Positions 30,313 through 36,466 of a DNA stretch of 64,000 nt are shown piece after piece (within the stretch, counting starts at the first letter, position 1; every line of letters begins with the position of its first letter). The DNA comes from an uncultured Clostridia bacterium (GTDB taxonomy: Bacteria > Bacillota > Clostridia > Peptostreptococcales > Anaerovoracaceae): positions 1-64,000 of the forward strand of contig CAMCQA010000004.1 of the NCBI GenBank assembly GCA_945876935.1, written 5' to 3'. Under the pieces are notes generated by a model, which was not told the origin of the DNA, searched no databases, and was given only the letters and a program-made list of their open reading frames with translations. Made by a program: the position numbers and the translations under genes.

Positions 30313-31128
30313 TTACTCATTTCTAGAAGATATATATGCAGTCGCTGCAAACCCTATAAACAAAAATATTGATACATACCCTTCCATACTATTTTCCCAG
30401 CCTGGATAAACAAAGAACACAGAACCTAAAACTAAACCTAAGATACTAAAGTACATTGCTTGCGGAAATAGTGCCAAAGCTTTCTTTATTCCTTGAATCC
30501 CCATCACTAGTCCAATTAACGTTCCAATCGACATAGGTATTAATATAGATAGTTTAAACTCCCCTATGCTTTCTATAACAATATTGTAGGTACCAATTAA
30601 AAGCATAACTAATGAGCCACTAATTCCAGGTATTATCATGGCTATCGCTGCTATGATTCCTGAAAGAACTATTAGAAGAAACATCTTATAATCTACCGAG
30701 CCAATATCATCTATTCCTTTATTGTGAAGTCCATCTTGATTGACAAAGCTCAAAACAGCCATAGATAGAAACATCACTATAGCTAACCCTACATTGTAAA
30801 GCTTAGGCTTCTCTCCTTGACATCCATTTCTATATATTAAGGGAATGCTTCCAACTATTAACCCTAAAAATATAAATCCTAAAGCCATAGGATAGCTCTG
30901 CCTCATAGATAATATAATCTTGCTTAATCCTATGATCCCAGCACCTACTCCTACAAGAAACAATGTCAAAAACCTCTTGTTCTCTCGCCATCCCTTTAAG
31001 GATAATGCATTTAACAGTTTATCATATATATTTAGAACTACTGCCATAGTTCCACCACTTACACCTGGAATAGCGTTTGAGACACCTACTAATATCCCAG
31101 ACAAAAATACTTTTATATCTTTTCCCAT
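30313..31128 (-). CDS. DUF368 membrane protein, probable undecaprenyl-phosphate transporter (PopT-like)
   Basis: 271 residues from the ATG at 31128; the GTG six bases earlier abuts the AAGG site and is less likely. Eight or so hydrophobic helices. The family motif SGILVGVSNAIPGVSGGTMAVVLNIYDKLL near the N-terminus and its inverted-repeat counterpart AIAMIIPGISGSLVMLLIGTYN in the middle are characteristic of DUF368. Members have been linked to recycling of the C55 lipid carrier across the membrane in Gram-positive bacteria. It stands alone between nrdJ and the repeat-rich island. Confidence 0.85.
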   Translation of the reverse strand: MGKDIKVFLSGILVGVSNAIPGVSGGTMAVVLNIYDKLLNALSLKGWRENKRFLTLFLVGVGAGIIGLSKIILSMRQSYPMALGFIFLGLIVGSIPLIYRNGCQGEKPKLYNVGLAIVMFLSMAVLSFVNQDGLHNKGIDDIGSVDYKMFLLIVLSGIIAAIAMIIPGISGSLVMLLIGTYNIVIESIGEFKLSILIPMSIGTLIGLVMGIQGIKKALALFPQAMYFSILGLVLGSVFFVYPGWENSMEGYVSIFLFIGFAATAYISSRNE

Positions 31129-31228
31129 TCTCACCCTTAAAACTTGTTTAAAAAATTATACAAAATTCCTTAGATAATTTTTTAACAATCCTATTGTAAC
31201 TTTGTTAAAAATATGTTAATTTATTATT

Positions 31229-31406
31229 ACTTGCTCGAGAAACTATCTAAGTTAATGAGACAAGTACCTTATCATTTTTATATCTGCTTTTGAGAGTTGA
31301 CCGGAAAAGCTTTAAATTGCAAGCCGAGTAACAGCTCTCTTAAGCAACACCATTTTCAGATTTTTTTAGAAGTGTTGTTAAAAACATAACAACACTTCTT
31401 TATTTT
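31229..31406 (+). ncRNA. Candidate small structured RNA with its own promoter and terminator
   Basis: An extended -10 promoter (TTGTAA at 31194-31199, 17-base spacer, TG-T-TAATTT ending at 31222) precedes a segment where GAGAGTTG and CAGCTCTC form an 8-bp stem enclosing ACCGG, GCTT..AAGC and a GAG-TAAC single-stranded part. A perfect 12-bp terminator hairpin follows. No gene follows on the plus strand, so a free-standing RNA fits better than a riboswitch. The family is not recognised. Confidence 0.4.
31369..31406 (+). terminator. Strong plus-strand terminator with no obvious upstream gene
   Basis: GAAGTGTTGTTA/TAACAACACTTC, 12 bp perfect, 6-base loop, followed by TTTATTTTT. The minus strand lacks a T run after the hairpin, so it serves a plus-strand transcript. 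Confidence 0.85.
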
Positions 31407-31738
31407 TCATTTAATATACCAATTAAATACATATAGTTTACTTCCATTCTGATAAAATTTTATAATATATGCATAGCATAAAACTATAAGCTACTTTAGA
31501 ATACCACTTTATTATAACATTGTCTATATTTAACAATAACGATTCTTGATCTGTATGACAGACTTGCTTTCTAATATAAGAGCTTCTATTTACAGCATAC
31601 AATTTAATAAATACGTAGCTCATTTCGAAGCAAACTTAAAGTAATTATCCTTAGCCAACTATAGCTCACCTCCTTGTATTACCAGTCATACCAATCATAC
31701 CAACCATCTTCACGCCAACCTTCTGGATAATAAAAACA

Positions 31739-31927
31739 CATGCCTGACCACTCCTTACCAATCCACTGGTACCACAATTTCTGCAAACCCTATTTTTAAT
31801 AACTCTTCTGCTTACATAAAACCTCCTTTGCTGTTGATGTTTACCATAACAACCTTTTCTTTCTATTATTTTGTGGTATAAAAAAAGAACCCTACTATAG
31901 TAAAGTTCTTAGTTTTTATATTATTTA
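31739..31927 (-). repeat. Duplicated block, copy 1 (downstream of paralogue A)
   Basis: About 190 bp that recur at 33199-33385 with roughly 90% identity and a constant offset of 1460 bases. Each copy lies directly downstream of a paralogue gene and holds its terminator, an AAAGGAGG site followed by ATG and an immediate stop, and the 5' part of the WYQWIGKEW remnant. Confidence 0.85.
31879..31910 (-). terminator. Terminator of paralogue A
   Basis: On the minus strand AGAACTTTACTA pairs with TAGTAGGGTTCT (two G-U pairs), followed by TTTTTTT. The copy after paralogue B is degraded in the stem. Confidence 0.8.
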
Positions 31928-31933
31928 TTTATG

Positions 31934-32362
31934 CTATTCACTTAGCACTCTCATAAGTTCATTTAATCTTTCGGCTTCATAATTTGCTACACCAATATCT
32001 GTCAGCTCTTTATCAATTAACATTGTATTGTTAAATGTGAACTCCATACAAGTACTATACAATTCAACATCTTTGCCTATAAAAACCCTATCTAATTCGT
32101 CATCTATCCCAAATACTCCAAATTCATCTGCTAATTTTATTAACTCTTGAAATACAAGTTTTCCCAGATAAGATGTCCAAGGACTGCCGTCTTGGTAAAT
32201 TTGTATTTGTATAGTGGATTTGGTACCTTCTAATATATTAAATATTATTTTTGATTTGCGAACATTGTTTTCAACTGGCATAAAATCATTTAGTAACTCT
32301 AAAGCTTCCACCAATCTTTTACCACTTTCTGATAATATATTCTCTAACTTAACTTCTCTCAT
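31934..32362 (-). CDS. Unrecognised small protein, tandem paralogue A
   Basis: 142 residues, soluble, acidic. I do not recognise the family. It shares with paralogues B and C an N-terminal helix with SGK(R/K)L(V/Y)EAL.LL..F, a central strand-turn IQIYQDGSPWTSYLGKLVFQEL (consensus (I/V)(Y/F)Q.(S/G)SPW.S.LG.LVF) and LIKLADEFGVF. The conserved part is the first ~100 residues; the C-terminal ~40 diverge. AGGAG lies eight bases before the ATG. It is preceded by a ~650-base leader containing the larger structured-RNA copy. Tandem, diverging small proteins are typical of immunity or antitoxin families, but no toxin is identifiable. Confidence 0.7.
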   Translation of the reverse strand: MREVKLENILSESGKRLVEALELLNDFMPVENNVRKSKIIFNILEGTKSTIQIQIYQDGSPWTSYLGKLVFQELIKLADEFGVFGIDDELDRVFIGKDVELYSTCMEFTFNNTMLIDKELTDIGVANYEAERLNELMRVLSE

Positions 32363-33198
32363 GCTTATATCTCCTATTCATACATTAACTCTTAATGATC
32401 TCATATATAGATATCCTTTTTATCTACTATAATAAGTATAATAATCTTTACAAGTAGCAAACTTTAATAAATTTGCTACTCCTCCAGTATCTTTTACAAA
32501 ACCGTTTAGCAATAATATTGCTATATCACTCAACTAATAATTCTTTTAATGCTTAATCATTTTAGATGCTTTCTTTTGGCATTTCAATATATATACTTTG
32601 GGTACGACACCTAACTCCCGACATCAAGTCGTTTGTAATGTGATATACATCAAGCATTGACCACGATATCGTATGCACAACCTGTTTCTATATATCTATT
32701 GATAGATGTATTATTTGGACTTCTTACCCCTTAACTGCTAGATTTATCATCCGTGCAGTCTTGCTCTCATCTTATCCCCATACTTGCTATACCCATATAA
32801 CCTTAGTAGAGTCGGTGAGCAACCTTGACACTTAATCAAGCGTACAACAGCCTCTATCAACTAGACACCGTTTTATTCTTTACCACCTTGTACGGTAGGT
32901 GTACCTATAAGCAGTATAGTTCACCCTATACGCTCATAGCGGTTTAGTTCAATAACGTATCTGTTCTAGCACCTGCTGGTTTTACCTTGCAGGGAAGGGC
33001 TTCACAGCTTTTACCTTTCGGCTTCTGCCGTTCTTCCTTTCAATTGTAATGCAAAAAAAACGTCAAAAATGTTGGCAAAAATCAAAAAACTTTGTACTAT
33101 TTTCAATATATTTTTGAATTGTCTGCAATAAAAAAAGAAGCCTCAGAATCGCCCATAATTGAAATATTTTGGAAATAGGTAATAAAGTATTAGATGCT
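32363..33198 (-). other. Long leader of paralogue A: structured RNA plus a coding remnant
   Basis: About 840 bp without a normal gene. From the upstream (high-coordinate) end it has AT-rich DNA with a promoter-like block (~33055-33110), the large structured RNA candidate (32620-33055), and an open 38-codon minus frame at 32420-32533 encoding LSDIAILLLNGFVKDTGG and ending DYYTYYSR. That frame contains a GTAGCAAA/TTTGCTAC hairpin and lacks a convincing ribosome binding site. Confidence 0.5.
32620..33055 (-). ncRNA. Candidate large structured RNA, copy 2 (upstream of paralogue A)
   Basis: GC-richer than surrounding intergenic DNA and full of short helices. On the minus strand: CGGC-AGAA-GCCG and CCTGC..GCAGG near 32990-33040. 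Next come CTATGAGC/GCTTATAG (32939-32932 with 32912-32905) enclosing GTATAG-GGTGAA-CTATAC (32931-32914), a CACCT/AGGTG hairpin with loop ACCGTACA (32901-32884), and CTTGAT..GTCAAG (32840-32824). The same helices occur with compensatory changes at 34180-34294. Ends are approximate. Class not recognised. Confidence 0.6.
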
Positions 33199-33385
33199 CA
33201 TGCCTGACCACTCCTTACCAATCCACTGATACCAGAATTTCTGCAAACCCTGTTTTAAATAACTCTTCTACTTACATAAAACCTCCTTTGCTGTTGATGT
33301 TTACAATAACAACCTTTTCTTTCTATTATTTTGTGACATAAAAAAAGAGCCCTACTATCATAAAGTCCTTAATTTTATATTATTT
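33199..33385 (-). repeat. Duplicated block, copy 2 (downstream of paralogue B)
   Basis: Second copy of the block at 31739-31927. The remnant frame here reads QGLQKFWYQWIGKEWSGM and then stops, so the duplication ends inside the remnant. The embedded terminator stem is degraded relative to copy 1. Confidence 0.85.
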
Positions 33386-33808
33386 TACTGTTAAGTTTGT
33401 TAGTAGTTTTTCTAATTTTATCTTATAAAAATCATTGGATAGCTTGGTTCTGGATGGCGAAATCTCAGTAACACCAAGAAAACTAAATGTAACCTTTGTT
33501 GACAAATCTTCTAATAGTGGATTTTCTACTATTTCTTCCTCTAAGGCTGGATATACACCCCACTCATCAGATAATTCAACTAACTTATTGAAAACCAATT
33601 GCCCTAAAGGACTAAACCACGGACTACTATTCTGAAATACCATTATTTCTATCTCATTGGAAAAAGGTAGCAACGGCAATTCAATTTGAACAATTGACTT
33701 CTCAGCCTCCATTTCCACTGTTTTAAACTGTTCTAACAGTCTTAAAGCCTCATATAATTTTTTGCCACTATCTGTAATTACTCCTTCTAACTTTACTTTT
33801 TTCTCCAT
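33380..33808 (-). CDS. Unrecognised small protein, tandem paralogue B
   Basis: 142 residues, homologous to A and C (ITDSGKKLYEALRLLEQFKTVE near the start; IMVFQNSSPWFSPLGQLVFNKLVELSDEWGVY in the middle), with a divergent, more basic C-terminus. An excellent AGGAGG lies five bases before the ATG. It is preceded by the shorter structured-RNA copy and followed by the duplicated block. Similar leader lengths for A and B suggest the module RNA-plus-gene was duplicated as a unit. Function unknown. Confidence 0.7.
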   Translation of the reverse strand: MEKKVKLEGVITDSGKKLYEALRLLEQFKTVEMEAEKSIVQIELPLLPFSNEIEIMVFQNSSPWFSPLGQLVFNKLVELSDEWGVYPALEEEIVENPLLEDLSTKVTFSFLGVTEISPSRTKLSNDFYKIKLEKLLTNLTVK

Positions 33809-34475
33809 TCATACCTCCTACTTGTATATAAGCTATATTATTTGTTTTTTCTTTCCTCTAAAACAGCTTCTCTTTATTGTGCCATCAATTATATTCTTGT
33901 TTGATAGTCTACTTACTTTATTGTTTCTCTATCACCACCTCCAATATTTAAATAGTTTTCCTTTAAAATCTGCTTGTTTTATGCTTTTTCATCATTTCGG
34001 CATGCTTATTTCTGCTATAAAGCCCAACATCCTACATCTAGCAGTTTATTGAAGTGATATACATCAAGCATTGATCACGACTCTACATTCACCATACTTT
34101 AAGCATACCTATTTGCAAGTGTAATTACTCTGACTATTGCCACTTTTACCCGAAGGTACTTGCCGAACTACCCGACAACCTTGATACCTAATCAAGCGTA
34201 CAACGACCCTCGCAAACTAGACGCCGTTTTATTCTTTAACGCCCTGTACGGTGGGCGTACCTAACATGCTAACAATTCACCTTGTTCGTGCTAGTGGTTT
34301 GGTATAAATAACTTACTTAACTAACTTAGAAATAACCTACTTAAAAAGAAGAAAGAAAAACAGGAACTAAACTTCTGAGGCGTTCCTCTCTCCCCTCACT
34401 TATATATATTGTTAAAATTGCAAAAAAAGTGACGAACATTTTGTACTTTTATAAAAACATTTTTATAAATTCTCT
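33809..34475 (-). other. Long leader of paralogue B
   Basis: About 670 bp without a convincing gene: a promoter-like AT-rich block (~34385-34460), a segment with GAGG-AACG-CCTC pairing, structured RNA copy 1 (34020-34330), then AT-rich DNA with a GGAGGTG site followed by a six-codon frame. Plus-strand frames here are short and have no ribosome binding site. Confidence 0.5.
34020..34330 (-). ncRNA. Candidate large structured RNA, copy 1 (upstream of paralogue B)
   Basis: Minus-strand helices equivalent to the copy at 32.6-33.05 kb: CTAGCA/TGTTAG (34294-34289 with 34266-34261) enclosing AACAA-GGTGAA-TTGTT (34286-34271), ACGCCC-ACCGTACA-GGGCGT (34258-34239), and CTTGAT..ATCAAG (34196-34180). 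A conserved 3' element GATATACATCAAGCATTGA lies at about 34056-34074 (and 32642-32660 in the other copy). The 5' domain of the larger copy is missing or diverged here. Confidence 0.6.
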
Positions 34476-34507
34476 TTTAAAAGGAGTATCGAAATAAACG
34501 ATACTCC
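34476..34507 (-). terminator. Terminator of paralogue C
   Basis: GGAGTATCG/CGATACTCC, 9 bp, 7-base loop, followed on the minus strand by TTTTAAAAG. Confidence 0.75.
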
Positions 34508-34535
34508 TAAACATTACTCCTACTCTACTTATTTA

Positions 34536-34988
34536 TTACTTTCTCTTAGTTTCTTCTATAAACTTGTTTTGAAGCTCCTCCTCGTATTTGACAAGATGTT
34601 CATAAGCTCTTACACCCCGCATACCTTCGGCAACCTCTGCTGACAACACATTTGTATTATAGAAGTTGAGCAGTATATATGTATCATATTCTTCTATTCT
34701 TTCTCCCAGTTCTATATTATCTTCATCGACTGAAAATATATTCCAGTCATCTGCTAACTCTATTAGTCTTTTAAAAACCAATCTACCTAACGGAGATTGC
34801 CACGGGCTACTACTCTGATATATTACTACCTCTTTATCAGAGTGGCTAAAAATATCATCTCTGCAACTCACCAGTGCGCGTTCATATGGCTGTTCAGCAG
34901 CTTTAAATTGATCTAACAACTCTAGCGCTTCCACTAACCTTTTCCCACTATCTGATAATACTTCATTTAGCATTTTTTCTATATTCAT
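34536..34988 (-). CDS. Unrecognised small protein, tandem paralogue C
   Basis: 150 residues from the ATG at 34988, which has AAGGAG five bases upstream and aligns with the starts of A and B; ten extra upstream codons are unlikely. The shared core is LSDSGKRLVEALELLDQFKAAEQ, then VVIYQSSSPWQSPLGRLVFKRLIELADDWNIF. C has the longest C-terminal tail (helical, charged) and no structured-RNA leader; only a promoter-like block at about 35090-35165 precedes it. It may represent the founding copy, with B and A derived from it. Function unknown. Confidence 0.7.
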   Translation of the reverse strand: MNIEKMLNEVLSDSGKRLVEALELLDQFKAAEQPYERALVSCRDDIFSHSDKEVVIYQSSSPWQSPLGRLVFKRLIELADDWNIFSVDEDNIELGERIEEYDTYILLNFYNTNVLSAEVAEGMRGVRAYEHLVKYEEELQNKFIEETKRK

Positions 34989-35179
34989 TTTTTCTCCTTG
35001 TTTTATCATCTTTGACACATTAATACTTCATATCTCGTTCTTTCTCCCCCTTTCTTCACTGTGTTTCTTCTTTCAGTTTTACTATTTCCTCCTCACTCTT
35101 ATATATATGAATGAAAATGGTAAAATTTGCTCCAAAATTGACAATTTCTTTGTATTTTTTTTAATACAAAAACTAACCA

Positions 35180-35215
35180 TAAAAAAGCACCCTCACATAA
35201 AATAAGGATGCTTTT
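35180..35215 (-). terminator. ctpA terminator
   Basis: On the minus strand AAAAGCATCC pairs with GGGTGCTTTT, followed by TTATGG after a run of six T residues. Confidence 0.8.
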
Positions 35216-35233
35216 ATTTTGTTCATCTATTTA

Positions 35234-36466
35234 TTATTTCTTTAATTCTTCTATAGCTTTATTAAGCTGTATATCCTCATCATCATCTGAGGATTGTTTA
35301 ACTTCAATATCAGGAATCACGCCTCTCTTATGGATTTTCTGATTCTTAGGAGTATAGTATTCTGCCGTAGTAAGCTTAACAGCTGTTCCATCTCCTAAAT
35401 TAAAAATCTGCTGTATTATTCCTTTACCATAAGAAGTCTCTCCGATAATTTTCGCCTTTCCAAAGTCCTGCATAGCACCGGCAAATATCTCTGAAGCACT
35501 TGCACTATTACCATTTATTAGGACAACCATTTTCTCATCAAGCTGGTGCTCTTCATCAGATGTCCATTCTCTCTCTAGTCCATGCCTATTTTTAGTATAG
35601 ACTACTCTACCTTCTGGAAGTACATAGTCTAACATCTCTACCGTGCTTTTTACCAAACCTCCCGGATTATTTCTAAGGTCTATTACAAAACTTCTTGCTC
35701 CTTTAGCTTTGAGTTTCATTATAGCCTGTTCAAAATCTTCATCTGATGAATCTGTAAATTCGGATATTTTTATATATCCAATATTTCCCTCAATAATATC
35801 AGTAGATACACTGCTTACCTTAACTTCTTTCCTTTGAATATTTTTATCAATTTTTTTATTTTCAGATTCTCTATAAAATTCTAACTGAACTCTTGTGCCC
35901 TCTTTACCTCTTATAAGCTTTACAACATCTCCAAGGTTGTCTCCCTTCAGCTTTTTTCCCTCTACGGATATAAGCTCATCACCTTTTTTAAGACCACTCT
36001 CTTCAGCAGAGGAGTTTTCAAACACCTCATCTATATATACTCTCTTATCATCAGCTTGTCTAAATTTAACACCTATACCAAAGAATCGACCTTCTGTTTC
36101 TTCCTTGAGAAGCCTAAGTTCTTCCTCATCTAAGTACGATGAGTACGGATCTCCCAAACCTTCGACCATTCCATCTAAATCATCAACATTCAGCTTGTCC
36201 TCTGATATGTCATCATAATACAGATAGTTATCCTTTATGAGGCTTTTAAGTTGATCTTCTTTGGATGTTGTTCCAGAATCAAAATAATTACCTCCCAAAT
36301 CTAGTACATTGATAAATACACCTATTAAGGTTAATACTATCGTTATAAATACACCAATAATTACTACTTTAGATCCTTGGAAACCTCTAGTATCTATGGG
36401 TGCCATACTTCTTTTTTGCGTTTCTTCTTCGCCGTTATACATTTCTTTTTTATCAAATTCACTCAT
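35234..36466 (-). CDS. ctpA: C-terminal processing peptidase, S41 family
   Basis: 410 residues: short cytoplasmic start, one transmembrane helix at ~33-52, then an extracytoplasmic enzyme. The N-terminal helical part (GMVEGLGDPYSSYLDEEE) is typical, followed by a PDZ domain (~125-205, FFGIGVKFRQ..LKKGDELISVEGK) and the S41 protease domain. The catalytic Ser is in NGNSASASEIFAGAM and the Lys in ETSYGKGIIQ. It cleaves exported proteins from their C-termini; substrates cannot be read from the sequence. Monocistronic with its own terminator. Confidence 0.95.
   Translation of the reverse strand: MSEFDKKEMYNGEEETQKRSMAPIDTRGFQGSKVVIIGVFITIVLTLIGVFINVLDLGGNYFDSGTTSKEDQLKSLIKDNYLYYDDISEDKLNVDDLDGMVEGLGDPYSSYLDEEELRLLKEETEGRFFGIGVKFRQADDKRVYIDEVFENSSAEESGLKKGDELISVEGKKLKGDNLGDVVKLIRGKEGTRVQLEFYRESENKKIDKNIQRKEVKVSSVSTDIIEGNIGYIKISEFTDSSDEDFEQAIMKLKAKGARSFVIDLRNNPGGLVKSTVEMLDYVLPEGRVVYTKNRHGLEREWTSDEEHQLDEKMVVLINGNSASASEIFAGAMQDFGKAKIIGETSYGKGIIQQIFNLGDGTAVKLTTAEYYTPKNQKIHKRGVIPDIEVKQSSDDDEDIQLNKAIEELKK

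Follow-up and report, generated by a model that had tools for sequence, protein, structure and literature searches.

Why does a short island in a clostridial genome carry two copies of an ornate structured RNA, each ahead of one member of a small family of orphan genes, and what would such an RNA do there? The island (31225-35230 of the window, the 64,000-nucleotide stretch of DNA that was analysed) lies between the gene for an S41 C-terminal processing peptidase and a VCA0040-like (DUF368) gene, both neighbours being housekeeping genes. Its minus strand carries RNA copies A and B, with cores of ~290 and ~350 nt and one common fold, and three paralogue genes, two of which follow an RNA in the same sense (Table 1). 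The congener G002 lacks the whole stretch: there the peptidase gene has the VCA0040-like gene as its direct neighbour, at a distance of 427 bp; 74 bp adjoining the second flanking gene can be aligned at 77%. Among the genomes examined, the ~4-kb stretch appears to be private to this lineage, and its gain is a simpler reading than its loss in the congener. No integrase or tRNA was seen at the island edges.

Table 1. Positions of the RNA copies, their helices and the associated genes and signals (window coordinates; MFE, MFE fold)
Feature	Position (copy A or single)	Position (copy B)	Strand	Basis
RNA copy A core	34013..34304		-	alignment to copy B, covarying helices
RNA copy B core		32601..32950	-	alignment to copy A, covarying helices
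Extra 5' hairpins, copy B only (ACGGC..GCUGU; CCUGC..GCAGG)		32950..33055	-	MFE and centroid fold; no counterpart in copy A
P2 hairpin, loop GGUGAA	34261..34294	32905-32939	-	5 doubly changed pairs, two stems
P3 hairpin, loop ACCGUACA	34240..34257	32884-32901	-	2 doubly changed pairs
Predicted pseudoknot, P3-loop CGUACA (34250-34245) with UGUACG (34202-34197)	34197..34250	32894-32889 with 32846-32841	-	complementary, invariant
P4, AACGGC/GUCGUU, crosses helix L	34202..34228	32846-32872	-	3 one-sided wobble changes
Long-range helix L, UCUA.G.UUUGCGAG / CUUGCAAA.UAGG	34108..34221	32865-32853 with 32706-32695, UUGAUAGA/UCUAUCAA	-	5 doubly changed and 2 wobble pairs, 0 broken
P5 hairpin, CUUGAU/AUCAAG	34180..34196	32824-32840	-	1 wobble change
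P6 helix, UUGUCG/CGGCAA	34160..34178	32822-32817 with 32766-32761, extended	-	2 doubly changed and 1 wobble pair
P7 hairpin	34147..34158	32735-32758	-	3 doubly changed pairs
3' domain, P11 (9 bp) closing P9 and P10	34016..34087	32603-32673	-	covarying pairs
gene1, orphan paralogue without RNA	34536..35018		-	ORF list, comparison of paralogues
gene2, orphan paralogue downstream of RNA A	33380..33808		-	ORF list, comparison of paralogues
gene3, orphan paralogue downstream of RNA B	31934..32362		-	ORF list, comparison of paralogues
Shared upstream element, AAAA(N)(G)TACAAA ... ATATATAAG(A)GTGAGG	35089..35150 (gene1); 34390-34464 (before RNA A)	about 33050-33115 (before RNA B)	-	direct repeats D7, D8, D16, alignment A7
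Terminator-like hairpin 3' of gene3	31885..31910		-	consensus scan; similar sequence 3' of gene2 in the 189-bp repeat

Architecture of the RNA

The helices quoted in the first-pass annotation were all found in place on the minus strand when they were rechecked in the sequence. Between the copies, GUAUAG-GGUGAA-CUAUAC becomes AACAA-GGUGAA-UUGUU, the outer stem CUAUGAGC/GCUUAUAG becomes CUAGCA/UGUUAG, and the hairpin with the ACCGUACA loop changes its stem, all as had been described. Two points needed adjustment. The CUUGAU/AUCAAG pairing, said to be kept, is so in copy A, whereas copy B has CUUGAU/GUCAAG (one U-A replaced by U-G); and the copies were rightly placed, but their cores reach slightly further, to 34013 and 32601. 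Copy B does have extra hairpins near its 5' end, which bring it to 456 nt (to about 33055), and it has the higher G+C that had been ascribed to it (0.37-0.42, against about 0.29 in the adjoining sequence).

The refined fold adds to that description the long-range helix L, the 9-bp P11 and two predicted pseudoknots. Hairpins P2 and P3 form a 5' domain. Helix L, in which five of the eight main pairs are doubly changed and which is also found in the MFE of copy A, encloses P5, P6, P7 and a small P8 to make up a central domain. Enclosed by L, the strand GUCGUUGUACG has two predicted partners beyond the helix, AACGGC (forming P4) and the P3 loop (CGUACA/UGUACG). Both pairings cross L and would give the RNA a double pseudoknot; of the two, P4 shows wobble changes only, and the P3-loop pairing, identical in both copies, is thus without covariation. 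In the 3' domain, a three-way junction joins P9 and P10 to the closing helix P11 (four doubly changed and two wobble pairs); P10 has one doubly changed and one wobble pair. The apical loop of P9 is C-UUGAU-G, and that of P10 is UAGAU in copy A (C-UAGAU-G) and UUGAU in copy B. A terminal pairing P1 (CCAA/UUGG in one copy, CUAA/UUAG in the other) can be proposed only tentatively, since one of its bases is also used by P11.

The motif CUUGAU occurs three times in copy B (32601-32840: P5 strand, P9 loop and P10 loop) and twice in copy A (34016-34196). The P5 strand AUCAAG could pair with those CUUGAU loops instead, a possible switch.

Selection on the fold

Is this structure selected? The first-pass annotation had taken the compensatory changes as a sign that it is, and a test in which no helices were picked beforehand agrees. 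With RNAalifold on a MAFFT alignment of the two copies, the consensus energy was -53.3, compared to -27.2 (sd 3.8) in 200 column shuffles that preserved gaps and conservation (z -6.9), and 16 pairs were changed on both sides, compared to 6.7 (sd 2.4) in the shuffles, none of which reached 16. On the opposite strand the same test gave a z of only -2.2, which places the RNA on the strand that also encodes the genes. Folding of single sequences only mildly beats shuffles (z -1.6 and -2.4 for the two copies), and the evidence therefore rests on the comparison between the copies; two sequences amount to one evolutionary comparison.

The hand-refined model has 85 pairs: 50 are the same in both copies, 24 differ at both positions, 11 differ at one, and none is broken. 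Because it was drawn with both sequences in view (a previous draft had three broken pairs at helix ends), its pair count serves to describe the fold, and the fair statistical measure is the shuffle test. Each of the 11 one-sided changes involves a G-U wobble when read on the minus strand; read on the plus strand it would be an A-C mismatch, and the minus strand is thereby identified as the functional one. Taken together, these comparisons make it very nearly certain that the RNA structure is under selection.

Leader or free-standing RNA

What, then, is the RNA for? There is about an even chance (roughly 0.5) that it is a co-transcribed leader acting in cis on its paralogue gene, and this reading is favoured over that of a processed, free-standing RNA. 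Position and strand support the leader placement put forward in the first-pass annotation for two of the three genes: both copies lie in gene sense, 205 nt (A to gene2) and 239 nt (B to gene3) before the ORF, and both follow an element that also precedes the RNA-less gene1, although its second half is weak before RNA B. The consensus scan placed a minus-strand terminator after gene3 but none at the 3' end of either RNA copy or in the stretch from there to the gene, and the simplest reading is a single transcript with the RNA as its leader. Each transcript would comprise the shared upstream element, in which we infer a promoter, the RNA, and the ORF for a 142-residue orphan protein. The RNA copies are ~75% identical in their alignment, compared to 48-53% for the DNA and 35-39% for the proteins of the paralogue genes. 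On the other hand, gene1 lacks the RNA, the 3' end of the RNA is >200 nt from the start codon, nothing resembling a conserved expression platform (a terminator/antiterminator or a stem that would sequester the start site) could be recognised, and a promoter scan gave 20 sites, compared to 19.8 (sd 3.4) in shuffles.

Such a leader might, for instance, bind a ligand or the paralogous protein itself (autogenous control), and so affect the elongation of transcription, the stability of the RNA or its translation. The RNA-gene unit would have entered or arisen between the S41 peptidase and VCA0040-like genes and then been duplicated. The similar elements upstream of gene1, RNA A and RNA B suggest an ancestral unit of element, gene and terminator, with the RNA sitting between element and gene in two of the three cases.

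The long gap, the lack of an expression platform and the greater conservation of RNA than protein keep another reading alive, and where a fold is better conserved than the gene behind it, the RNA itself could just as well be the functional product. The RNA may thus be free-standing or processed, perhaps as part of a ribonucleoprotein with the orphan protein duplicated alongside it, or of an RNA assembly; the ORFs would then be its partners and not its targets. This is the less probable of the two, but it is a serious competitor: at ~290-350 nt and with two predicted pseudoknots, the RNA is more elaborate than most leaders. It has to accommodate the fact that neither copy ends in a terminator and that both precede an ORF in sense. 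For the proteins, a weak helix-strand model resembled dsRNA-binding and homing-endonuclease folds only at insignificant scores (no match at E 0.001), and the AlphaFold models (pLDDT 48 and 37) are too weak for reading. A bolder and rather unlikely version is that a new pseudoknotted RNA class and a new small-protein family work together as a duplicated system peculiar to this lineage, with a role in, say, defence or conflict, neither part being homologous to anything described.

The three paralogue proteins have the motifs SGK.L.EAL.LL..F and SPW.S.LG.LVF in common. Searches of Pfam, NCBIfam, PHROGs, PADLOC and the PDB gave no convincing relative, and a protein profile run against 350 family and 381 class genomes gave no match that is credible as a homologue; the best one in a family genome (L017) lies on the antisense strand of a long gene. 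A 37-codon TTG frame (LSDIAILLLNGFVKDTGGVANLLKFATCKDYYTYYSR; 32533-32420 of the window, minus strand), lacking a good ribosome-binding site, lies between RNA B and gene3 in the presumed leader, and it has no counterpart upstream of gene2.

Relationship to known RNAs

Does the RNA belong to a known class? The first-pass annotation had suggested that ROOL- or GOLLD-like classes be considered. These are likewise multi-helix, pseudoknotted bacterial RNAs of unknown function, found in phage or prophage and often near tRNAs; no prophage or tRNA cluster was seen beside RNA A or B, and the sole tRNA of the window is at 111-183. They are also longer, ROOL env-120 being 659 nt and GOLLD often over 800 nt (PMC12286853). 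Compared to lengths above about 600 nt, the cores here are only 290-350 nt, half the ROOL length or less (456 nt with the hairpins of copy B), and the ROOL and GOLLD covariance models do not match, which speaks against membership. OLE RNA, too, is an ornate structured RNA adjoining protein genes, but no Rfam family matches here. Large riboswitches and autogenous leaders (T-box, cobalamin, ribosomal-protein) share a complex gene-sense fold upstream of an ORF, and differ in that no Rfam leader family matches, no expression platform is recognised and the downstream genes are orphans.

Group I and group II introns combine a pseudoknotted multi-helix fold with an adjacent small ORF, and a diverged intron of the self-splicing kind, or some other ribozyme accompanied by its ORF, would also fit an island that is missing from the congener. 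Such an element is very improbable, however, given that no gene or structural RNA is interrupted, no Rfam intron or ribozyme family matches even at E 10, and the proteins carry no intron-encoded domain and match no endonuclease, maturase or reverse transcriptase family.

In general, Rfam cmscan matched neither copy to any family at gathering scores or up to E 10; relaxed matches (snoRNA, JPX, astro_FSE) are chance ones to eukaryotic or viral families. A resemblance of copy A to 23S rRNA was set aside, as copy B lacks it and no Rfam rRNA matched. No third copy or remnant was found in 30900-35300 (filters off), nor a further copy elsewhere in the genome, and blastn in 60 relatives found none beyond the two copies. 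The covariance-model search proposed earlier did recover both copies, but it brought no homologue: model R1 (core), run on two partly overlapping sets of 350 family genomes and 391 class genomes, and R3 (3' domain), run on 327 family genomes, found only these two. Across about 700 genomes besides this one, no match was convincing as a relative, with the proviso that Infernal's stricter filters could miss distant ones. The weak R1 matches were antisense inside a membrane-protein gene (L053), aligned only with most of the model's middle missing (L014) or partial (L015 and L055), and in the R3 match in G035 P10 was unconvincing. A gapped-pattern search of genome contigs gave six chance matches, and the covariance model gave a score to L008 alone (E 1.7). 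Phages and plasmids, searched at DNA and protein level, yielded nothing convincing, and viral contigs, searched by protein and RNA patterns, nothing at all; the RNA is absent from the phage and viral collections.

Large structured RNAs are normally recognised through their presence in many genomes. Here, two divergent copies in one genome suffice to expose an elaborate selected fold unseen by family-based searches. If this case is a guide, the orphan islands of bacteria may harbour RNA classes that escape Rfam-style discovery, and pairs of paralogues offer a route to finding them. The RNA, itself without an Rfam match, is duplicated alongside orphan, fast-diverging genes, and the pair of RNA and orphan protein is small enough for direct testing.

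Repeats in the island

The two copies do lie in a repeat-rich island, but that they are a DNA repeat (a transposon end) or a coding relic with stems arisen by chance is scarcely credible, given the 24 doubly changed pairs, the strand-specific wobbles, longest sense stop-free runs of only 35-37 codons and the absence of any other copy from the genome.

The probable terminator of gene1 is an inverted repeat, GGAGTATCG..CGATACTCC followed by TTTT (34475-34510), which lies in the interval from that gene to RNA A and was not among the sites of the terminator scan. A 189-bp direct repeat (31728-31916 and 33188-33376, 90% identical) lies directly 3' of gene3 and gene2, respectively, and its copies are much more alike than the genes themselves. 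It contains a terminator-like hairpin, then a strong ribosome-binding site and ATG-TAA. After these comes what looks like a decayed tryptophan-rich reading frame (WYQWIGKEWSGM), which in the gene3 copy continues to CFYYPEGWREDGWYDWYDW.
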